Of a DNA stretch of 24,933 nt, positions 14,788-24,860 are shown one piece after another. Positions within the stretch are counted from its first letter, which is position 1; every line of letters begins with the position of its first letter. The stretch comes from a virus. Position numbers and translations under genes: made by a program. Location: positions 1-24,933 of the IMG/VR virus record IMGVR_UViG_3300034375_002218; one strand, given 5' to 3'. The notes beneath the pieces were generated by a model. It had not been told where the DNA came from, did no database searches, and saw only the letters and a program-made list of their open reading frames with translations.

Positions 14788-17145
14788 TTAGAATTTTGTA
14801 TAAAAATTGGGAGCAGGTATAGTTTTCCACAGATCAGCCTGATCCTTCGGTAGAGTGACCGGAACCGTAAAGTTTTCGTCTCCAACCTTGATGGTTGGGA
14901 TGTTAACTGTCTCTAGCTTTGTTGTCATATCAATTTTAGCTAACTGAAATTCAGAATGACATTTACCAGAACTTATGGTATGCTTAAGTCCTGTTATAAA
15001 ATACAACCCAGTTAGGAATCGGTTAAATTTAGATCTTTTTACTTTACCAGAAGTTTTTACAGGGGCGTCTTCAGCTAGTAGGATTACGGGTTTTGATACT
15101 AAAGCACCTCTTGTAGCTAGGTTGAAGAAGGGCAGCGTTTGTATGGTTGCGCTTCTAGTTACCTTGGTAATCATATTAGCGAACCTATCCATTAGTTGAG
15201 GTGGGGACTGCTCAAGCTCCTCTTCAATTTCTACAGTCATAGCATTTCCGTTTCTACTTATTGCCTCAACAAAACTAGCAATAGCTTTCTCTCTAGCATC
15301 TCCATCATCATAGACTTCCTTAACTAAGTCAGGACTTAGCTTATCCATAATCTTTTTTATTAGTTTTTTATTATCTAAAGCAGGACCAAAGGAAGAATAC
15401 TTATTTGCTAGAACAGCTTTTGCCATACCCGCTTGATCTAATATTTCAAAATCGTTTTCTCTAATATTTATTCCTCCTCCCTCTTTTACGAATTGTGCCA
15501 CTCGATCTATATTTGCGGCAAAAGTTAAAAGTAGGTTAGCAAAATAATTACCCTCATCTTTAGCTTTTATGGAGAGCACATTCGGATTTTGTGTGTTATA
15601 CCTGAAAATAGGAATAGCTTGTTTTTCAACGTCTTCATCAACATCAGTAACGCCTTCAACACTGGCAAGGGCAAATTTATCAGGAACAGAGTAAAGGTTT
15701 CCTAATAAGTACCCAGGGTATTTTACACGATTCTTTTCTTTAATTTTATTAGCGTATTCTCCGCTACCAAAGAAAGCTAAGTCGTCTTTGTAAATATACC
15801 CAGCTAGGTCTTTCATTCGGTCTCCAGTGTAAACTAAAGCATTAATAAAAGATGCATCTCCTAATATGTAAGTATCCTTGTTTGAATCAAAGCCGGGGAG
15901 GTCTGATAAAATATCAAGTAATTCCATATCTGACTCCGCAATATAAATTGGATAAGGCGTATATGCATCACCAGATACTTTACATATATTATTTATTACT
16001 GATTTAACTTTTGCTAGTGCGTCTGGAGTTTTTCCAGTATCAGAAGCCTCCATTGATGCGTAGAATTCATTATTTTCATAAAGGTCGTCACCCGCTCGGA
16101 GCGGGATACCACCAGACTTCGCTTGCTCTACTATCTGCGCTGGAAGCAGATTTGGTCCGGAATTTGCGTTCGCCTGTGTAACTTTATAAGGACCCTTCGG
16201 AGTTATTAACAACTGTAAGCCTAGCTTTTTCAAAAGAGCTTCTACTGCAAATCTTTTATCTTCATACCCATAGTTAGGGCCGAATCCACCGGGAGAGGTT
16301 TCTCCTTTTACCCTTTCATAATACTTGGAAAGGGTAATATTGAGATTTGGTAGTAATAAAATAACATTAGCTCCCCCAGTGAACTTTTTCACAAATCTAG
16401 TTACAACATCAACTACAAGTTTATGAATGTCTAGATCACCACCTAGTAAGTCGTCGCCATCACCGTAAATCGGAAAGCCCGATCTATCATTTCCAAAAAA
16501 ATTTAACTCATCGCTATAAGAGGTAAATCTAGTTTTATATCCATATAGGACTGCATCTAAACTTTGGTTGTATAATCCTTTCCTGTTATCTTTATTTAAA
16601 GATCGAGGAACAGGAGCAAATCTAAGTGTAATTTTTCTTGTTTTTGAGGGATCTAAAACTACGCCTGTTATCATTAGTCTTTGTACAGGAGACCAATATT
16701 CAGGATTTGGACCTACACCAAAGGAAAGATAAAAGTATTTTGTTTTGCTGAGGTCCACTATATTTTTAAATTCCGCAGAGCCAAGCTTAGATAATTCCTT
16801 AGTAGACTTTAATATTTCTTCTTCTTCTTTTTTTTCTATTGAGTTTTTTTCTTTAGGATTTCCGAAAGACAGATACCTGCCTAGAGATAAAAATGCACTT
16901 TGTGTATTGATATATAAATCTTCAAATTCGTTTTTAGGATCTATAATCTCTAAAATAGCCTCAGTCTCCGAACCCATCATGTTGTAGTTAAACGAAATAA
17001 TGTTTGGGTTATTTTGGGTGCTAAACAGAAATACATCTTTGTTGTCTTGTGTAAACATAGGTGCTCCTGAGCCCAATTTCTGGAGGGCTTTGTTTAGAGC
17101 ATCTCTGCTTTCAGATATAATGATGTTCCCCGCTGCAACTGTCAT
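14788..17145 (-). CDS. Baseplate hub protein (gp27 / gpD-like position)
   Basis: Encodes 785 residues, about twice T4 gp27. The N-terminus (NPNIISFNYNMMGSETEAIL, then EIIDPKNEFEDLY) resembles the first beta domain of phage hub proteins. A basic/acidic low-complexity stretch (EKKEEEE, about residue 103-110) looks like a linker inside that domain. Further on are ANVILLLPNLNITLSKYYER (about 250-275) and a segment on growing 'one long chain' of alpha/beta character to a conserved-looking C-terminus (FLTGLYFITGLKHTISSGKC, about 705-730). The protein sits between the gp53/LysM gene and the spike, where hubs such as gpD or gp27 sit. It would form the trimer that carries the spike and connects to the tube. 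Identification is mostly positional. It overlaps the gp53-like gene by four bases (ATGA). Confidence 0.7.
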   Translation of the reverse strand: MTVAAGNIIISESRDALNKALQKLGSGAPMFTQDNKDVFLFSTQNNPNIISFNYNMMGSETEAILEIIDPKNEFEDLYINTQSAFLSLGRYLSFGNPKEKNSIEKKEEEEILKSTKELSKLGSAEFKNIVDLSKTKYFYLSFGVGPNPEYWSPVQRLMITGVVLDPSKTRKITLRFAPVPRSLNKDNRKGLYNQSLDAVLYGYKTRFTSYSDELNFFGNDRSGFPIYGDGDDLLGGDLDIHKLVVDVVTRFVKKFTGGANVILLLPNLNITLSKYYERVKGETSPGGFGPNYGYEDKRFAVEALLKKLGLQLLITPKGPYKVTQANANSGPNLLPAQIVEQAKSGGIPLRAGDDLYENNEFYASMEASDTGKTPDALAKVKSVINNICKVSGDAYTPYPIYIAESDMELLDILSDLPGFDSNKDTYILGDASFINALVYTGDRMKDLAGYIYKDDLAFFGSGEYANKIKEKNRVKYPGYLLGNLYSVPDKFALASVEGVTDVDEDVEKQAIPIFRYNTQNPNVLSIKAKDEGNYFANLLLTFAANIDRVAQFVKEGGGINIRENDFEILDQAGMAKAVLANKYSSFGPALDNKKLIKKIMDKLSPDLVKEVYDDGDAREKAIASFVEAISRNGNAMTVEIEEELEQSPPQLMDRFANMITKVTRSATIQTLPFFNLATRGALVSKPVILLAEDAPVKTSGKVKRSKFNRFLTGLYFITGLKHTISSGKCHSEFQLAKIDMTTKLETVNIPTIKVGDENFTVPVTLPKDQADLWKTIPAPNFYTKF

Positions 17146-17453
17146 GATAACTTAGGTATTAATATTCTATCGTTTACTTTAAACCCTTCGAAAGGATCTG
17201 ATATGGAGTTAACTTCCATTAGAAGCCACCACTTACCTGGATCTCCATAGAATACATTTGATATTAAATCCGGCCTGTGCGCGTATCCCTCAGGGACGTA
17301 ACCGATTTCATACTCATAAGAAGTGTCAAGATTTTCTAAGAGTAGATCATGACCTTCACTATGAACAATTGTATTAACTGTATTGTTTCTATGCCTTACT
17401 ACGGTCTCACCTAATTCGTAAGGGCCTCTATCCTGCGCTATTCCCTCTGGCAT
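17142..17453 (-). CDS. gp53: Baseplate wedge protein, gp53-like with LysM-type core
   Basis: Encodes 103 residues. The second half carries the gp53/LysM-like pattern: RPDLI (60-64), YGDPGKWW (69-76), DPFEGF (86-91) and a closing ILIP (97-100). T4 gp53 and small tail proteins such as P2 gpX share this LysM-like module, here used for protein-protein contacts in the baseplate and not for peptidoglycan binding. GGGAGG lies eight bases before the ATG. The start overlaps the upstream stop as TGATG, and the hub gene follows through ATGA. The order tube initiator, LysM protein, hub equals U-X-D of P2. Confidence 0.8.
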   Translation of the reverse strand: MPEGIAQDRGPYELGETVVRHRNNTVNTIVHSEGHDLLLENLDTSYEYEIGYVPEGYAHRPDLISNVFYGDPGKWWLLMEVNSISDPFEGFKVNDRILIPKLS

Positions 17454-18400
17454 CAGTTAAACCTCCCTGGGTCCATGCTTTGGTGTGGACTTGAGATTAC
17501 TGCTTCCCAACCAACTAGGTTGTCTCTAGCGACCAAATCTCCCGGTTTGAACTTTTCGTAGTCTCCAGCTCTTAATTCTTCTAACCTCATTGATACCTTA
17601 ACTTGACGAGGCATCATAGTTTGAAGATCGTACCCTGCTGCTTCGACTGGTTCGAAGTTGTAGTCTGTGCATATACAAGGAATATTTTGGAACATTATAC
17701 CGTGATTCAACCTGACTACAGGAGGACCGTAAATAGGCTGCTCTGAGTTATTTGTAACTGAAGCTCGAATAATGTTCATCCAATACATAACTAAATTTAT
17801 TAGTCTGTACTTTTCTTTAGATGCAGAAAGTGTATTGCTAGGATTATTATTGAAAAGTGTCGTTGCGTTTGATTGAGCTAAATACCCCAAAGGGACATCA
17901 ACACCTGGAAAAAGATTAAAATTAGTTTGTTGAAAAACAGGATCTAAAGTACGAACTTCACTAAATTGAGTATTCGAATAAAACTCATTAAAGAACTTTT
18001 CCGCATCAGCCTTAAGCCCTCCCCTTGCTCCTCCAACGCTTTCTATTTCTCCTGCGGCGGGAGCAAAGAATCTATTTCTTTCTGCTTCATTATTCTCTAC
18101 GGATACTGTGCTAATGTAGTTTTCTAATGCAGTGGACGTACCTTGCTCTAATATGTGAGGAAAGTTCAAGTTAAAAGTTAGATTTAACTTTCTAGATTCG
18201 GCTCCGAGGTAGGTGTAAAGTTGGCTGGATCTGGCTAATAAATCGTATTTTTCATACCTTGCTCTTTTCGATTCCGTTATGCTTAGGTTTTCAAAGAAAG
18301 GCATAGTTACGGCGGTATCTACGCCTCCACCCACAGAGGGAAATTCAAAAGTAAGCTTAGACCTTTCCTCTAGCTTCCTATCTTTAATAAACTGGCTCAT
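17453..18400 (-). CDS. Probable baseplate tail-tube initiator/cap (gp48/gp54 or gpU slot)
   Basis: Encodes 315 residues. GGAGGAG sits about seven bases upstream, and the start overlaps the tape-measure stop as TAATG. Residues 33-83 carry a dense motif: MPFFENLSITE, then KYDLLARSSQLYTYLGAESR, then LTFNLNFPHI. This reminds me of tail-tube-like or tube-initiator proteins of marine T4-like phages, but I cannot confirm the family. A second conserved-looking stretch near the C-terminus (VVRLNHGIMFQNIPCICTDY, then VKVSMRLEEL) resembles a tube-type beta barrel. Position between tape measure and LysM protein equals P2 gpU or T4 gp48/gp54, which start the tube on the baseplate. An alternative is a further hub component. 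Confidence 0.58.
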   Translation of the reverse strand: MSQFIKDRKLEERSKLTFEFPSVGGGVDTAVTMPFFENLSITESKRARYEKYDLLARSSQLYTYLGAESRKLNLTFNLNFPHILEQGTSTALENYISTVSVENNEAERNRFFAPAAGEIESVGGARGGLKADAEKFFNEFYSNTQFSEVRTLDPVFQQTNFNLFPGVDVPLGYLAQSNATTLFNNNPSNTLSASKEKYRLINLVMYWMNIIRASVTNNSEQPIYGPPVVRLNHGIMFQNIPCICTDYNFEPVEAAGYDLQTMMPRQVKVSMRLEELRAGDYEKFKPGDLVARDNLVGWEAVISSPHQSMDPGRFN

Positions 18401-20637
18401 TATCTAGCTCCTCCTATCGCGGTTGCACCTGGGCCAGGAGGTATATCCTTGCCGATGACATTAGCTATATCTACTTGTGCTTTCAATGAAGCAAGAGCGA
18501 TGTCCCTCTCTTCATCATAGTTAGATAGTGTTATAGCAAGAAGAGTGTCGCCTAAGCTTTTTACAGATTCTGTCATAATCATTGTAGGCTCTGCAAAATC
18601 AGGAGGTTCTTCCGTATTCTCTTTAATGTCGTTTAAATACTCATTCATTATCCGCAACTGCTCGTCTGGGTTCAACTGTTCTATTTTAAACTCGTCCAGC
18701 ATCTGGCTAACACCTTGAACCACAGTTCCAAAATTATCTTCAAAGCTCCCACTCCTTGCTTCTTCAATCTGTCGCTCCAGGTCTTTTAACATCGCAAAGC
18801 CGTCAGCGGCCATCATTGTTTCGTGCTTATACTTTGAATAGATTTCACCCTTCTCGTTGGTTTTTCTAATTTCTATGGCTCTCTCAAACATCTTATCCCT
18901 AGACATTCTATCGTTCATCTCGCCATACTTATTAATTATTCCCTGCTCCGTCAACTGAGTCTTTAGTTCATCTCTTTGTTTCTTTAGGGGGCCAGTAATA
19001 CTTTCAATTAGATTAGATTCAAATTTCTCCCCCATACTTTTTTCAGGAAATAGAGTCATTTGGGTCCCCGCTTTGTATAAGTAATTGCTATCTATATTTA
19101 TTAGTTCGTCGAGAATACCACCTACTTTATTCAACAACAAGGATGCGAGAGACACAAACAGGTTTGCAATCTTAGCCATGCTGTTGTATATGTTTATAAA
19201 TACCCTGGCTATGGCTTCAGGGTCTCTGATTAGCGTAGATAGTTTATTAGAAAATTCTTGAACTTTAGGAACAAGAACAGTATTCAGTGATCTCATGAAC
19301 GATGCAATTGATCCGTATAATTCTGTGAAAACTACCTTGTCAAAAGGCTCAAGTATCTCATCAAAAAGAACTGATATTTGATCAGCAAAGTTAGCCCTCT
19401 CTATTTGTTTTTGTACTTTTCTAGGATCCATCTCTCCTAGAGCTTTAATAGAATATGCTACATTACCTAGGGCGTTAACCGGAACAGAGAATCCCTCAAT
19501 CATAGTTCCAAGATCGCCCGCCATGCTATCCACAACTCGACTTGATTGTCTCGCAGCGTCCATAAACGCTTTCTGCACACCCGCCTCATCTAAACCTTGA
19601 ATAGCCCTAGTGAAGCCTTGGACACCCAGGATGCTTCTTTTCTGCATGGCTTCAAACGAAGGGTCGAACATCAACTGAGCAAAATCTTTGAATTGCTGTT
19701 GCATCTCAGGACCAAGTTGCCCCGCCGCTTTTACTAGCCCTCCAACTGCGGACTCCATTCCAGCAGATTTAAACAGAGGAATAAACTGTTTTATGGCATC
19801 TACTGATTCTACTAATGTATCTATACTGACCGTAAATTTATCCCTGGTATCTCTAAGAGTTTCTACTAGAGTGTTTCTCTGTCTAGTATCCATTCTCATA
19901 GTGGTGTTAAGAAAAGCTAGAGATTTTGCTGTTCCTTTTACGTCACCACCAAGAAGCATCTGTTCATTGATCAAGTCTCCTATCGAACCATTTATCTCAT
20001 CAAGCTCAATACCTGCTCTTAGTCCTTCGAAAACAACTCCTAGTCGCTGAGTAAAATCACCACGAAACTGATCGACCATCAACTCTTTAATAGGCTTATC
20101 CCGATCAATAACACCTCTAGACACTAGATCATTAAAATCTTGATTTAGTTTAGAAACACTCTCTGAAAAGGATGTTCTTAGAACACTACCTTGTCGATCC
20201 ATTGTAATGTTCAACTTTGATAGTCTTTCTCCAAGACTATCATTGTTTTTTGCAACATCCTTTATGGGTCCTAAATCAGTACCTAATTTAGTGGTCGATT
20301 CCTTATAACTTTTTGATAATTTATCCGTGCTTTCTTTTAGATCCCCAAGAGTACCTATTTTTGCTGTTGTAGCGTTTAAACTCCTTGCTAACTCGTCCGT
20401 GCCTTTCCTAACATCTCTAAGCGCACTTTCCGTCCTAGCGGCTGAATCTTTAGCTGATTTATTAAAGTTCTTCTGTAGCTTATCACTTATAGTTAACTGC
20501 TTTGTAAGCCCTCCAAGTGACTGACCCAGCGCCAATGAAGCCTTCTGAGCTTTATCCGCCTGTTCCACCTGAGTTTTTATCTGACCTATAAGTGTCCCTA
20601 AAGTAGCATTTAAAATTTCAAATGTTAGTGCAAGCAT
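18400..20637 (-). CDS. Tail tape measure protein
   Basis: Encodes 745 residues. The first ~230 residues are almost wholly helical and polar, rich in Lys, Ser, Thr, Leu and Asp, as in coiled coils. A helical middle part follows, with a hydrophobic segment around 470-510 (VFINIYNSMAKIANLFVSLA, then SLLLNKVGGIL) typical of tape measures, which form a pore at infection, and then a charged helical C-terminus. Length and composition, plus the following tube-initiator, LysM and hub genes, support the call. With the usual ~0.15 nm of tail per residue, the protein would specify a tail of roughly 110 nm; this is an estimate from family behaviour. The start overlaps the upstream stop as TAATG. The chaperone pair that usually sits next door is over 3 kb away here. 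Confidence 0.8.
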   Translation of the reverse strand: MLALTFEILNATLGTLIGQIKTQVEQADKAQKASLALGQSLGGLTKQLTISDKLQKNFNKSAKDSAARTESALRDVRKGTDELARSLNATTAKIGTLGDLKESTDKLSKSYKESTTKLGTDLGPIKDVAKNNDSLGERLSKLNITMDRQGSVLRTSFSESVSKLNQDFNDLVSRGVIDRDKPIKELMVDQFRGDFTQRLGVVFEGLRAGIELDEINGSIGDLINEQMLLGGDVKGTAKSLAFLNTTMRMDTRQRNTLVETLRDTRDKFTVSIDTLVESVDAIKQFIPLFKSAGMESAVGGLVKAAGQLGPEMQQQFKDFAQLMFDPSFEAMQKRSILGVQGFTRAIQGLDEAGVQKAFMDAARQSSRVVDSMAGDLGTMIEGFSVPVNALGNVAYSIKALGEMDPRKVQKQIERANFADQISVLFDEILEPFDKVVFTELYGSIASFMRSLNTVLVPKVQEFSNKLSTLIRDPEAIARVFINIYNSMAKIANLFVSLASLLLNKVGGILDELINIDSNYLYKAGTQMTLFPEKSMGEKFESNLIESITGPLKKQRDELKTQLTEQGIINKYGEMNDRMSRDKMFERAIEIRKTNEKGEIYSKYKHETMMAADGFAMLKDLERQIEEARSGSFEDNFGTVVQGVSQMLDEFKIEQLNPDEQLRIMNEYLNDIKENTEEPPDFAEPTMIMTESVKSLGDTLLAITLSNYDEERDIALASLKAQVDIANVIGKDIPPGPGATAIGGAR

Positions 20638-20981
20638 TATATTTCAATTCTCCATACAGGGCTTTGGATCTTGGAGAGAATGTAGGTTCTGTAATTCTCT
20701 TCAGGTAGCTCCTTATTCTTATATAGAGTAACTAAAGACTCCGGGGTATAATCTGCCGCTAAAGGAACTTTGAAGCCTGTAAAAAGTTTATTACCCGTTC
20801 TAGCGTCCTTAACCACTGGGGTAACGGACAAAACAACTACCCAATCACCCTGGTAGAGGAACATTACTAGCCTACCTTTGTCTATACCTGACGCCGATTT
20901 AGGCACTATATGGATTTTTAGCGGGTCGTTTCTATCGACCTGATATAAAAATCTGGTAATTGGTAGTGAAAAAAACCTCAT
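20637..20981 (-). CDS. Small conserved-looking protein before the tape measure, function unknown
   Basis: Encodes 114 residues. I do not recognise the family. It looks all-beta, with strands such as LKIHIVPKS, RLVMFLYQGDWVVVLSVTPVV and KLFTGFKVPL, a helical PESLVTLYKNKELPEENYRT, and a final strand SPVWRIEI. It is basic and lacks membrane segments or a signal peptide. It is the first minus-strand gene after the inserted nuclease/primase block and overlaps the tape-measure start (TAATG), so it is probably co-translated with the tape measure and may be a small tail or assembly protein. A weak AAGAG lies six bases before the start. Confidence 0.6.
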   Translation of the reverse strand: MRFFSLPITRFLYQVDRNDPLKIHIVPKSASGIDKGRLVMFLYQGDWVVVLSVTPVVKDARTGNKLFTGFKVPLAADYTPESLVTLYKNKELPEENYRTYILSKIQSPVWRIEI

Positions 20982-21017
20982 TTGATACTCTTATATATTA
21001 GTATATAGGTAATCAAA
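20982..21017. promoter_or_regulatory. AT-rich divergent intergenic region
   Basis: These 36 bases separate two divergent starts (minus ATG at 20981, plus TTG at 21018). They contain TTATATATTAGTATATAG, in which two TATATA blocks flank TTAG. One or two promoters are expected here because both flanking genes start outward, but no confident -35/-10 pair or T4-type late box (TATAAATA) can be assigned; TATATAAG on the minus strand is the nearest. Confidence 0.35.
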
Positions 21018-21314
21018 TTGAGCAAAAACATAGACATTGAAATAGTAGACTTCCTTGACCTGATAAATCATACACTGAGTAATGCCTTTACAGAAAAGTG
21101 GAGACATAAGTATAGTGAAAAATTTATAAAGCATTTCCAGTTGAAGCTTCTTGACTCGATGAATAAACAGAAGCCTATAAAAAAGGAAATGCTTTATAAT
21201 TATCTTACTAAGAAGTGTAAGTACTCAAAAGAACAGGTATTAAACTTCTTTTCTACTATTGATATTGATATTTACAAACCTTTTATTTACGGTCCTTTGA
21301 AGATTTCTTCTTAG
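21018..21314 (+). CDS. Small basic helical protein of unknown function
   Basis: Encodes 98 residues from a TTG start with AGG about eight bases upstream. A stop (TAG, 21006-21008) lies just upstream in frame and the first in-frame ATG is internal, so TTG is the best start. The product is helical and Lys-rich, with an aromatic C-terminus (FSTIDIDIYKPFIYGPLK). I do not recognise it. It is not in the late structural direction; it faces the nuclease gene and overlaps its end by 32 bases tail to tail. Local base composition is AT-rich (19 of 60 G/C in 21121-21180), unlike the primase downstream. It may be an early or regulatory protein, which is speculation. Confidence 0.55.
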   Translation: MSKNIDIEIVDFLDLINHTLSNAFTEKWRHKYSEKFIKHFQLKLLDSMNKQKPIKKEMLYNYLTKKCKYSKEQVLNFFSTIDIDIYKPFIYGPLKISS

Positions 21315-22068
21315 CCTTTAGCTCGTCAAACTTCTTGGTACAGGTCTGTGGGTCGTTATACTCAGGACACAGACCCTTATAGGCACACCAGTTACAGAAA
21401 TCGTTCCTGCTAGGCTTTAGTTCCGCTTTCTTCTTCTTTCTGATCTTCCAGACCTCATCAACTATGTTCTTGACATGTGCATTGATCTGGGGTACGCTAT
21501 ACTGGACATGCACGAAGTTGTTCGTCAAGGGATAGTAATGTGCAGCCACAATATTCTTGACGGGCACATCGTACATCTTACTGACAGCATACACATAGCC
21601 CTTCAACTGTGAGTCCTGGTATAGGTCTACCTTGCTCTTCTCTCTCTTTGAAGTCTTGTAGTCTATCACCAGATAGCCTCCGTCTTTGCCTTTGATTACA
21701 CGGTCAATGACGCCATTGAGAGTTATATCGTCCTTTACAGGGACCTGGAAGACTAGCTCTGTGGCGATGCTTCCCTCTAACCCAGCGTTGAACTCAAGAA
21801 AGTTACGGAAACACGTTGAATCTTTGCCCTCATACTTCTTTGATATAGTCCATGTGCCCTTCACACTCTCAGCAATCTGCTCTAGTTCCTCTTGCGTGGT
21901 GGCCTCAACGCCATCTTCAAGGACCTTATGGATGTAAGATCCAAAGTGGAGAGCCTCTGTGTTGGCCTCTTCGGGCTCTGGTAGCCTATCTACATAGCGG
22001 AAGCAATATTTCAACTGGCACTGTTTAAAAGTTTGATACTTAGATTCGGATATAGTATTTATGTACAT
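21283..22068 (-). CDS. PD-(D/E)XK nuclease, Cas4/RecB/AddB-like with Fe-S cysteines
   Basis: Encodes 261 residues. The nuclease core is clear: the His motif GSYIHKVLE (H47), GVIDRV (D122), VIDYKTS (D136, K138), and a Q-x3-Y motif (Q154, Y158). C225, C228 and C234 in the C-terminus together with C17 (or C22) near the N-terminus form the spacing of the 4Fe-4S clasp of Cas4 and AddB nucleases. Such enzymes degrade or trim DNA ends, in phages often in replication or recombination; the exact role is not readable here. The start has a strong GAGGTGA site. The gene is divergent from the primase with overlapping starts, which suggests joint function in DNA metabolism. A Lys-rich C-terminal tail follows the cluster. 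No CRISPR repeats or cas1/cas2 occur in the window. Confidence 0.85.
   Translation of the reverse strand: MYINTISESKYQTFKQCQLKYCFRYVDRLPEPEEANTEALHFGSYIHKVLEDGVEATTQEELEQIAESVKGTWTISKKYEGKDSTCFRNFLEFNAGLEGSIATELVFQVPVKDDITLNGVIDRVIKGKDGGYLVIDYKTSKREKSKVDLYQDSQLKGYVYAVSKMYDVPVKNIVAAHYYPLTNNFVHVQYSVPQINAHVKNIVDEVWKIRKKKKAELKPSRNDFCNWCAYKGLCPEYNDPQTCTKKFDELKAKKKSSKDRK
22061..22068. other. Shared palindrome carrying two head-to-head start codons
   Basis: ATGTACAT is self-complementary. Its first three bases are the start codon of the plus-strand primase, and its last three, read on the minus strand, are the start codon of the nuclease. The two coding regions therefore overlap by eight bases at their 5' ends, and the upstream control signals of each must lie inside the other gene. 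A second in-frame ATG of the primase at 22067 would reduce the overlap to two bases. Confidence 0.75.
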
Positions 22069-23056
22069 GATTTCACCTCAGTTTATTAGAGAGTTCCTTA
22101 CCAAGAATTTCTCGGATATCGGACGTTTATCTGCAAATGATCGTGAGTTTATCATGGAGTCTCCTTTTATAAGGAATGACTACAAGCGACACTGCTCCGT
22201 TAATGTAGATAGTGGTCTATGGCAGTGCTTCAAGACAGGAAGGAACGGAAACTTTGTTAGCCTGTATGCTCACCTTCAAGGCATAACCTACTTCAGTGCC
22301 CAGAAGGAACTCATTATTAAAAACTTTGATTACCTAGGTAAGCCCATCCCTCTGGGTGTCATGCCTGAGGAAAAGAGGCTGGAGCTTGACACCAGCAAGC
22401 TAATCCCCCTCAACATAGCGTCGGGCTTCTCTGACGACCCCGATGTACTGAAGGCGTGGTCTATCCTGTATGACCGCAAGCTATTCACAGAGATTAACGA
22501 CACTAAGGCAGAATACTTCCTATGCAAAGAAGGTAAGTTCGCCAACAGGATTATTATTCCCTTCTCCAAGGACGGTATGGTTTTTTACTTCCAAGCTCGC
22601 GCTATGGGAGACGAGAAGCCTAAGTACCTCAACCCATCCACTGAGATCGCCCCCAAGTCATCAGACATCCTGTACCCCTACCGTGAAGACATGGGTATGC
22701 TTGTTGTCTGTGAGGGGCCTCTGGACGCCATCTCATTCCAGCTACAGGGAATTAACGCCACCGCCACGATGAAGAATATCGTCAGCCCGAGGCAAGCAGA
22801 GGCGCTGGCTACCTTCGACGGGGATATTGTCCTTGCTTTCGATAACGACACGGCGGGTGAGCGAGGATTCGAAGCTTTTGACAGGTTGAGGAAAGAGCGC
22901 CTGATGGACGAGTTCTTTGTTTGTAAACCTCCTAAGGGCTACAAAGATTGGAACGAGGCGCACAAGAACGGCCATGATCTTGGCAATCATCTTGTAGATA
23001 ACATGGCCCTTTATGATTTTGAGTATAAGATGTTCAACGAGATCAACTTAATGTGA
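22061..23056 (+). CDS. Toprim DNA primase, short, with degenerate zinc motif
   Basis: Encodes 331 residues. Residues ~30-70 align by eye to the CHC2 zinc-binding domain of DnaG primases (SPF near 34-36, then GLWQCFKTGRNGNFVSLY, 52-69). Of the four usual ligands only C56 is kept; the others appear as S34, I37 and T59. The Toprim domain is intact: VVCEGPLDAIS with E218 and D222, and AFDNDTAG with D261 and D263, followed by the common PKGYKDWNEA. It would make RNA primers for phage DNA replication, perhaps with a separate helicase, since no helicase domain is fused. Local G+C is visibly high (33 of 60 in 22681-22740). The gene opposes the tail operon and its end overlaps the 316-residue gene by 14 bases. 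ATG at 22067 is an alternative start. Confidence 0.82.
   Translation: MYMISPQFIREFLTKNFSDIGRLSANDREFIMESPFIRNDYKRHCSVNVDSGLWQCFKTGRNGNFVSLYAHLQGITYFSAQKELIIKNFDYLGKPIPLGVMPEEKRLELDTSKLIPLNIASGFSDDPDVLKAWSILYDRKLFTEINDTKAEYFLCKEGKFANRIIIPFSKDGMVFYFQARAMGDEKPKYLNPSTEIAPKSSDILYPYREDMGMLVVCEGPLDAISFQLQGINATATMKNIVSPRQAEALATFDGDIVLAFDNDTAGERGFEAFDRLRKERLMDEFFVCKPPKGYKDWNEAHKNGHDLGNHLVDNMALYDFEYKMFNEINLM
22073..22079 (-). promoter_or_regulatory. Strong ribosome binding site of the nuclease, inside the primase gene
   Basis: GAGGTGA on the minus strand, with AATC between it and the ATG at 22068, is close to the ideal anti-16S complement at normal spacing. It fixes the nuclease start and lies within the first codons of the opposing primase gene. 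The primase start has only a weak GGAT upstream. Confidence 0.65.
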
Positions 23057-23993
23057 AGTACAGGGGCGGCGTAACGATAAGTTCCTTAAGTAAGTTGTAC
23101 TTAAGAGTTAACCTGTACTGCCCAGTTAAACCTCCAAAATCTGCCACGTTAGCGTGAGTAGCAAGCGTGGTAGTATCAAAATTAAATACCAGTGTATTGT
23201 CTGAGGTAATGTCAATAAGTGCGCTGGTGTCTGAATAGCCAGACACCTCAACATGAGCAGGGAGTGTTGGAGTTCCTTCGTTTATCTTTTCTATAAGAAT
23301 CTGAGGGTTTATTATTGCCGACTCCTTAAAGATATTTCTAATGCTTTGGTCGATATCCTTGTTGCCTATTGTCATTTCGGTTGTTATCTTGATGTCCTCT
23401 TTTGACCCAAGAACTATATGTTTGTTAATTAGTTTGTTTTTAGTCGTAAGAAGTACAGGCTGAGTAGTAACAAAGAAAGTATCATCATAAAGGTGGAAAT
23501 CGTTTATGAGAGACTGATAGGTAGACCCTTCAGCAAGCATAACAGTCCATACGTCAATGTAATCTCTTACCGCACTAGCAGAATTTTCTACAACTATAGA
23601 AGATCCATGTAGGTTGTACACCCCACTGATGTCCTGCGTGCCGTCTAGAACGACAACGTACTCACCCTTGGAAACTCGGTAAACTCCGCTTGTAGATGCA
23701 ATATCCGTACTCGGATTGTATCCTGATGGGTCTTGTGCAGGAAAGCCTCCATCTTCGCCCGAAGGAGCAAAGTTCATTCTAACGATACCTGAAGCGATTC
23801 CTGAGGAAATTAGGTTTTCATCTAGAATGGTGCTTGGAGTGAAGTTGGCAGACTTGTCAAATACTGTTACTGCACTAATATCATACGGATCAACGTACTC
23901 ACCATCATTTATGAAAAAGGCTCTGAGGCCCACCTTTTGTAGCACCGTGGGCCTATTGTTTCTATCTACTAAGCTATTTCCGTTTAATTGCAT
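23043..23993 (-). CDS. Probable virion structural protein, family not recognised
   Basis: Encodes 316 residues, preceded by GAGAGGG about seven bases before the ATG. It is largely beta-sheet in appearance. The N-terminal part has GLRAFFINDGEYVDPYDISA followed by VFDKSANFTPS, a sequence style I associate with structural proteins of marine myoviruses without being able to name the family. The centre includes SGVYRVSKGEYVVVLDG and a D/Y-rich segment; the last strands are YRLTLKYNLL. Its start overlaps the end of the chaperone -1 frame by 20 bases, so it belongs to the tail operon. It lies where a tape measure would be expected after the chaperones, but is far too short and beta-rich to be one. 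It ends in a 14-base tail-to-tail overlap with the primase. Confidence 0.65.
   Translation of the reverse strand: MQLNGNSLVDRNNRPTVLQKVGLRAFFINDGEYVDPYDISAVTVFDKSANFTPSTILDENLISSGIASGIVRMNFAPSGEDGGFPAQDPSGYNPSTDIASTSGVYRVSKGEYVVVLDGTQDISGVYNLHGSSIVVENSASAVRDYIDVWTVMLAEGSTYQSLINDFHLYDDTFFVTTQPVLLTTKNKLINKHIVLGSKEDIKITTEMTIGNKDIDQSIRNIFKESAIINPQILIEKINEGTPTLPAHVEVSGYSDTSALIDITSDNTLVFNFDTTTLATHANVADFGGLTGQYRLTLKYNLLKELIVTPPLYFTLS
23085..23105. other. Stem-loop after the primase, possible convergent terminator
   Basis: CTTAAGTA and TACTTAAG form a perfect 8-bp stem with a 5-base loop, about 30 bases after the primase stop and inside the end of the opposing 316-residue gene. No T-run follows on the plus strand, so it is not a classic Rho-independent terminator. 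It could still limit read-through or protect a transcript 3' end. Confidence 0.25.
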
Positions 23994-24159
23994 TTGATTC
24001 CCTCTCGGCGTCTTCGCGCAGAAGTTTGAGGAATATAGTCCTCTCTAAGCGAGTCATCTCCTTTACGTCAGAATAAGTAAAGTTAGCTCGCTTTACCAAT
24101 ATATAGGCTTCTAGAAGCAGAGAATCTAAATCAATTATCTGTTCTAGCTCACGCCGAAA
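23974..24159 (-). CDS. -1 frameshift extension of the gp26-like chaperone (gp51-like)
   Basis: The -1 frame is open from the slippery run to TAG at 23976-23974, adding 61 residues beginning FRRELEQIIDLDSL. The extension is helical, with LLEAYILVKRANFTYSDVKE followed by MTRLERTIFLKLL and a charged end. That is the pattern of the second (T-type) domain of tape-measure chaperones: an L-x-x-x-Y helix, a short loop, then an M-T-x-x-E-R helix. No ATG, GTG or TTG occurs in this frame between the upstream in-frame TGA (about 24181) and a TTG far into the extension, so separate translation would lose the first helix. The fused product would have 295 residues (234 + 61). T4 gene 51 lies directly after gene 26, which fits this identity; gp51 homology itself is inferred. 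Confidence 0.72.
   Translation of the reverse strand, partial: FRRELEQIIDLDSLLLEAYILVKRANFTYSDVKEMTRLERTIFLKLLREDAERESNAIKRK
24111..24147 (-). promoter_or_regulatory. Possible stimulatory hairpin downstream of the slippery site
   Basis: CTAGAA (24147-24142 read on the minus strand) pairs with TTCTAG (24116-24111), and CAGA (24141-24138) pairs with TCTG (24121-24118). One unpaired base at 24117 separates the two helices, and a 16-base loop closes the structure. The stem begins 8 bases after T TTT TTC or 11 after A AAT TTT, near the usual spacing for -1 stimulators. It contains the zero-frame stop codon. Pairs are mostly A-T, so stability is moderate. Confidence 0.42.
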
Positions 24160-24860
24160 AAATTTGCTGTTATTGGTAGGTCAATGACTGACACCCCTCC
24201 GCAGGATTTACACTTAAGTTTAACTTTGGTATCCACACCGAAATCTAAGTTAAAGGCGGAAAGAATGGTCTTTATGTCTACTAATGGCAACTTGTTCAAA
24301 ACCTCAGCAATAATTGCTTTGTCCGTGTGGCCGTCTATTGATTCCACAAAACGCCATAATCCATCAAGAGAATCCTCAGCGTTAGCTAAAAGTTTTTCGT
24401 CACTAACTCTAGGAAGACGAACATTTACTTCTTTTTTTGCTTTGGGGAGCTTGACAATGACAGGCTCAGTAAACTCGTCTGGAACTTCGTGAACCAATAG
24501 TTCGGAAAGTTTTATTGTTGTTGGGTTTTCTGTAGAGCAGTGACTGCAAGCCAAAAGAGTCTCATACTCGTCACCGTAAGAAATTTCTCTCAATTTCATG
24601 ATGAGGTATAGTTTATCGAATGATAAAAGCTTTGTTACGGAAATTCCATCCAAGCAGCGATCCAGAAGTAGGTTAATGGGATCCTCTGTCTTTGCACTAA
24701 TTAATTGCTTCTCATCCTCAAATGTCATGGGCCTCAAAGTAAGTACATGATCTTCTTCTAAATCATAAACTTTATTTCTAGAGGGAAGATACACTTGAAC
24801 TTCCGTATCCTCTGGGACATCACTCAAAATATCGTTGATTATATCTTCTTTAGATTGCAT
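24144..24860 (-). CDS. gp26: gp26-like baseplate hub / tape-measure chaperone (zero-frame product)
   Basis: Encodes 238 residues (T4 gp26 is about 208), with AGGAG eight bases before the ATG. The layout fits the T4 gp26 family: an opening strand VQVYLPSRNKVYDL, then LTLRPMTFEDEKQLISAK (40-57), a helix ending in LLLDRCL, and FDKLYLIMKLREISYGDEYE (81-100). Two CxxC pairs, C105/C108 and C217/C220, could bind one zinc ion. In T4, gp26 acts in hub assembly beside gp51; in other phages this slot holds the tape-measure chaperone. The last codons contain the slippery site at N233-F234-F235, and the second CxxC lies just before it, so both products keep the metal site. It is the first tail gene visible at the right. 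Confidence 0.75.
   Translation of the reverse strand: MQSKEDIINDILSDVPEDTEVQVYLPSRNKVYDLEEDHVLTLRPMTFEDEKQLISAKTEDPINLLLDRCLDGISVTKLLSFDKLYLIMKLREISYGDEYETLLACSHCSTENPTTIKLSELLVHEVPDEFTEPVIVKLPKAKKEVNVRLPRVSDEKLLANAEDSLDGLWRFVESIDGHTDKAIIAEVLNKLPLVDIKTILSAFNLDFGVDTKVKLKCKSCGGVSVIDLPITANFFGVS
24156..24165 (-). promoter_or_regulatory. Programmed -1 frameshift slippery site
   Basis: On the minus strand the sequence is GCAAATTTTTTCGGC. In the gp26-like frame it reads GCA AAT TTT TTC, giving the heptamers A AAT TTT (24165-24159) and T TTT TTC (24162-24156), both of the X-XXY-YYZ form. The zero frame stops three codons later (TAG, 24146-24144), while the -1 frame continues for 61 residues. Confidence 0.75.

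Follow-up and report, generated by a model that had tools for sequence, protein, structure and literature searches.

Does the gp26-like gene in this stretch of viral DNA end at its stop codon, or does a fraction of its product continue into a second reading frame, and if so where does the change of frame occur and what are the two products for? The window, by which we mean the whole stretch that was analysed, is 24,933 nucleotides long and comes from an uncultivated virus (IMG/VR virus record IMGVR_UViG_3300034375_002218). The gene ends GCA AAT TTT TTC GGC GTG AGC TAG, with AAT at 24164-24162, so that, as the first-pass annotation had observed, termination follows AAT TTT TTC by three codons. 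No stop interrupts the -1 frame between 24180 and a TAG at 23976-23974, a length of 68 codons from stop to stop and of 60 codons plus the TAG after the slip, and the last 20 bases of this open stretch overlap the next gene, counted from the ATG of that gene at 23993. The same annotation had reported an in-frame stop upstream of the second frame and no start codon in the first half of it; the stop is present (24183-24181, immediately upstream of the open frame), whereas the second statement fails on a TTG at codon 20 of the 60 (24099-24097), which is common to a minority of relatives. Of all off-frame stretches of 56 codons within the window's genes just 0.6% are open, which speaks against a chance opening. 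The ORF coordinates also give back the two product sizes first proposed, 238 residues and a predicted 295, the latter consisting of residues 1-235 of the 0 frame followed by 60 from the -1 frame. The features of the locus are collected in Table 1.

Table 1. Features of the gp26-like locus and its surroundings (window coordinates).
Feature	Position	Strand	Evidence or remark
TAC-N, gp26-like protein, 238 aa, 0 frame	24144..24860	-	PF12322, phrog_150, fold model
Heptamer A AAT TTT of the first-pass annotation, overlapping T TTT TTC	24159..24165	-	Not invariant; AAT replaced in 11/58
Slippery heptamer T TTT TTC, putative -1 frameshift site	24156..24162	-	T TTT TTY in 58/58; preceding codon varies
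0-frame stop TAG, 3 codons past slip	24144..24146	-	TAG 52/58, TAA 6/58; distance 3 codons in 55/58
TAC-C, putative gp51-like helical extension, -1 frame, 60 codons + stop	23974..24156	-	pN/pS, phrog_634, three-helix model
Predicted RNA hairpin, beginning at 0-frame stop, 8 nt after slip site	24111..24147	-	MFE -16.5 kcal/mol, z -2.84
GAAGCCTATATA, nucleotide-level conservation, about 45 nt after slip, -1 frame	24100..24111	-	GCC 47/49, ATA 47/47, GAA 46/46
Next gene, 316 aa, overlaps TAC-C end	23043..23993	-	Syntenic in relatives
Candidate tape measure protein, 745 aa, presumed client	18400..20637	-	Weak phrog_167 tape measure match, E 0.014

Scans of viral contigs gave 13 and then 80 loci, and the comparison set left after the removal of duplicates comprises 58 sequences, one of them the window, in which the gene end is complete. 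T TTT TTY stands in one and the same frame in all 58 (TTC in 52, TTT in 6), and all have an open -1 frame, which runs for 54-66 codons after the slip; the 0-frame stop lies 4-6 codons past the slip in the three sequences that depart from the usual spacing, and many relatives have a -1-frame stop only 5-7 codons upstream of the region of the 0-frame stop. Among the 8119 codons of the window's genes there are just two in-frame occurrences of T TTT TTY. Two overlapping heptamers within A AAT TTT TTC, A AAT TTT and T TTT TTC, match the X XXY YYZ pattern of slippery sites, but the codon before TTT is AAT in 47 sequences and GAT, AGT or TCT in 6, 3 and 2 respectively. Because T TTT TTY is intact throughout, and 11 of the 58 lack an intact A AAT TTT, we take U UUU UUY to be the putative slip site. 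The alignment of relatives that had been proposed as a check on the original claim thus finds both heptamer and -1 frame conserved throughout, and this conservation, together with the frame-specific selection and the homology described below, gives strong support to a programmed -1 frameshift by which the gp26-like protein acquires a gp51-like helical domain; the part of the claim that placed the slip at A AAU UUU does not stand, since U UUU UUY is the constrained heptamer.

Selection was compared between frames in 49 representatives, using the 357 pairs at >=70% identity. Upstream of the slip, frame 0 has a pN/pS of 0.24, and the same nucleotides read in frame -1 give 2.58; downstream, frame -1 has a value of 0.29 and the remaining two frames have 0.89 and 1.62. 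Third-position differences dominate frame 0 up to the slip and frame -1 after it, such that the period-3 pattern switches at the slip. As frame 0 has a purifying ratio before the slip and frame -1 has one beyond it, both frames are evidently translated and selected.

These data bear directly on whether the -1 frame could be a small gp51 gene of its own, translated from an alternative start or by termination-reinitiation within or just after the gp26-like gene. Such a gene, of 41-60 aa, is in fact annotated directly after gp26 in phages S-SM1 and Sf-FP1, and the TTG at codon 20 of the window's extension could start one here. However, no ATG, GTG or TTG is conserved in the first 33 codons of the extension among the 58 sequences, and 21 of them have none of the three within the first 25 codons; the first conserved ATG, at codon 35 of the -1 frame as counted in this comparison, would as a start leave only the last helix. 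Purifying selection begins already at the slip, moreover, and the invariant heptamer would need another reason for its presence. We reject a separate start for the second frame for lack of a conserved start codon, and regard an independent gp51 gene in any of these forms as very improbable.

A second alternative is transcriptional slippage, in which RNA polymerase would lose register on the six Ts found in a row at the junction of every compared sequence, so that a minority of transcripts carries the other frame. A six-T run is short for polymerase slippage, and the site has the phase required of a ribosomal heptamer. The codon choice also runs the wrong way: the second Phe codon of the slip is TTC in 52 of the 58 (90%, versus 24% for Phe elsewhere in the same genes, where TTT is preferred 247 to 76), and because this preferred TTC shortens the T run we reject transcriptional slippage, which we consider to have hardly any chance of being correct. 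Last, a sequencing error or gene decay that broke a former in-frame fusion, to which the existence of in-frame long forms lends some colour (T4 gp51 is a gp26-like protein with a C-terminal segment), is ruled out as the least probable account of all by a frame relation and site that recur in all 58 loci, many of them on separate metagenome contigs, with both frames under purifying selection.

The identity of the two parts was examined with sequence profiles. The gp26-like frame matches PF12322 (E 1.9e-23, 83.8 bits vs a cut-off of 24.5) and phrog_150, 'baseplate hub' (E 5e-27), and the PF12322 domain of the window protein contains two CxxC pairs. The extension had been proposed to be gp51-like and helical, to be verified by profile search, and this description holds: on their own, 35 of 41 extensions match phrog_634, 'baseplate hub assembly catalyst', the gp51 family (best E 7e-5), the window's own doing so weakly (E 0.003-0.004), and direct hhalign comparison of the extension with T4 gp51 gives a weak alignment of only 26-29 residues. 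In T4 gp51 the PF12322 match extends over residues 1-201, and in T4 gp26 it takes in almost the whole protein. The phrog_150 profile spans T4 gp51 at columns 13-280 of 282 and T4 gp26 only at 14-235, from which it follows that gp51 is a gp26-like protein with an extra C-terminal segment. The 0-frame part of the window product occupies columns 16-233 and its -1 part, weakly, columns 250-280; on these profile alignments the predicted extension adds the C-terminal segment that T4 gp51 has beyond gp26. None of the observations that had been named in advance as speaking against the frameshift was made, in that there is no conserved separate start, the heptamer is never lost with the downstream frame kept, and homologues of the extension are plentiful.

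Structure prediction used an alignment drawn from the window and the viral-contig loci. The AlphaFold model of the gp26-like protein has a pLDDT of 89, with a baseplate hub subunit of phage SP-15 as its best fold match (E 1e-19), and the extension is modelled as three helices (pLDDT 90). Among predicted viral structures the nearest Foldseek matches to the extension include a siphophage tail assembly chaperone and the gp51 proteins of P-HM1 and phage ZZ1, each at high probability and with a non-significant E-value above 0.01; comparison with the tail assembly chaperone of a Microbacterium phage gives a TM score of 0.80 over 51 columns (E 0.62). A fold search of the PDB with the 61-residue extension model yielded no match.

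Since gp51 is a gp26-like protein plus a C-terminal segment, and since the extension matches the gp51 family, the two products would be the tail-assembly chaperones TAC-N and TAC-NC. We therefore read the locus as encoding this pair for a T4-like contractile-tailed phage, the long form arising by -1 slippage at U UUU UUC, and put the probability of this reading at roughly 93%. We infer a slip ratio at which most ribosomes would read the gp26-like gene to its TAG, yielding the 238-aa TAC-N, and a minority would move back one base at U UUU UUC and translate 60 further codons, yielding the 295-aa TAC-NC, perhaps with the aid of a hairpin starting at that TAG. On the model of lambda gpG/gpGT, the TAC-N domain would coat the tape measure protein, and a few TAC-NC molecules would recruit tail-tube subunits via their C-terminal helices.

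Frameshifts in tail chaperone genes, including those of lambda gpG/gpGT and P2 E/E+E', were reportedly described by Xu, Hendrix and Duda in 2004. The window shares with these two systems a single start, a short and a long chaperone, a slip shortly before the first frame ends and a C-terminal helical domain, but its N domain is a PF12322 protein with two CxxC pairs; the likeness is one of layout, and we claim no sequence similarity. Closer to the present case, Vladimirov, Gautam and Davidson are said to name T4 genes 26 and 51 in the abstract of a 2022 paper, and to report that frameshifting has been kept in several T4-like groups. That paper is credited with identifying the T4-like chaperone genes (Virology 2022, 566:9-15, doi 10.1016/j.virol.2021.11.003), and later papers cite it for poly-T sites of frameshifting in T4-like TAC-N genes (as cited in PMC12846349) and for some T4-like phages that have one short gene and one fused long gene, without frameshifting (as reported in PMC10885494). 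The frameshifted chaperone arrangement in T4-like phages has therefore been known since 2022, and the link between T4 hub assembly proteins and the general chaperone system that the first-pass annotation foresaw is correct but already published. The window agrees with the T4-like TAC-N/TAC-NC loci in its gp26-like short form, its gp51-like long form and a poly-T -1 site near the end of TAC-N; it differs in belonging to a group of uncultivated phages. A search of a literature collection found no paper linking 'baseplate hub assembly catalyst' with frameshifting. New details here are the conserved GAAGCCTATATA element and the +1-frame versions in SP-15, LIS04 and a Streptococcus phage.

T4 itself departs from this arrangement. 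Its gp26 and gp51 are both PF12322 proteins, and the extra C-terminal segment of gp51 matches the window's -1 extension, but the short and long forms are products of two separate genes and not of a frameshift; the first-pass annotation had called these adjacent but separately started, yet they are no tandem pair and lie divergently on opposite strands, each with a gp26-like domain. A further parallel is the TAC locus of the Pakpunavirus/Vandenendeviridae phages (phage Adele, PMC12846349), where the -1 frame is likewise open in every genome and a poly-T site lies near the end of TAC-N, although the reported slip motif is GTTTTT and the phage family is another. The window thus provides, in an uncultivated T4-like group, what would be independent confirmation that T4 gp26 is the counterpart of the short tail-assembly chaperone and gp51 that of the long one, and on this comparison the two separate genes of T4 may derive from an older state with -1 slippage at U UUU UUY.

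The 745-residue candidate tape measure protein, with no Pfam family among its matches, is inferred from its context and is encoded about 3.3 kb downstream of the chaperone gene, with an opposite-strand gene in between. The gene order differs from that of T4-like TAC loci in that chaperone and candidate tape measure are separated in the window by the 316-aa gene, for whose product no family match was found, by a nuclease gene and, on the opposite strand, by one that looks like a primase gene. The primase- or toprim-like gene (331 aa, 22061-23056, + strand, judged by eye) lies within the run of tail genes and adjoins the PD-(D/E)XK nuclease gene (21283-22068, - strand), and this order is kept in relatives, in which the gene upstream of the gp26-like gene is a helicase gene. 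Further along, a 103-aa protein (17142-17453, - strand) aligns with no more than a short central portion of the T4 gp53 baseplate wedge family (E 2e-4) and is on this match a putative reduced gp53-like protein.

We have also examined the nucleotides downstream of the slip for signals in the RNA. The 10-bp helix of the predicted hairpin pairs in 76% of cells in an alignment of 48 sequences, versus 46-56% in slid versions of the same comparison; covariation among these 48 is not clearly above controls, RNAalifold predicts no consensus structure, and some relatives form other hairpins or none. A stimulatory role of the hairpin in frameshifting is likely. In GAAGCCTATATA, the third codon positions are conserved far beyond codon usage (the background is 0.15 for GCC and 0.24 for ATA), and this synonymous-site conservation suggests an RNA- or DNA-level element, for which a search found no pairing partner. 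A role as a general late promoter was rejected, as the motif is nearly absent elsewhere in relatives and TATAAATA occurs at chance level in the window. A second CCTATATACT is present at 21000-21009 (- strand), about 19 nt upstream of the start of a 114-aa gene at 20981.

The same arrangement, T TTT TTC followed by a gp51-like -1 frame, is found in the cyanophages S-SM1 (GCG TCT TTT TTC GCA TAG at the slip region) and Sf-FP1, in Ochrobactrum phage ORM_20 and in the uncultured phage LR756511, and with T TTT TTT in Stenotrophomonas phage RAS14. In S-SM1 and Sf-FP1 'gp51' is annotated as a gene of its own right after gp26 (L104:3178-3360; L105:3229-3354). From the sequence context these separate 'gp51' genes are probably mis-annotated -1 frameshift extensions of gp26; such extensions, recorded as separate small genes in cyanophages and missed in phages like the window's, should be annotated as frameshift products.

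Three phages carry the extension in the +1 frame instead: Bacillus phage SP-15 (L095:3600-3920), Listeria phage LIS04 (L096:3640-3950) and Streptococcus phage GXN1 (L097:3660-4000). The three have in common NCC CGA TTY shortly before the stop, a plausible +1 shift site as far as the sequence goes, and a -2 shift may be an alternative. By eye and in one small alignment their extensions are like the -1 ones; a search of the three found no match to phrog_634. A broader proposal, in which GAAGCCTATATA and the stop-codon hairpin together would form a frameshift stimulator new for tail chaperones and the SP-15/LIS04/GXN1 branch would have switched from -1 to +1, we consider doubtful. In the three phages the +1 extensions carry no annotation as a fusion, and close to the end of the gp26-like gene of the uncultured phage LR756508 we note another gp51-like extension in the +1 frame (L103:2200-2440). 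In SP-15 and LIS04 the chaperone gene lies between the tail tube gene and a tape measure or tail protein gene, the classical chaperone position.
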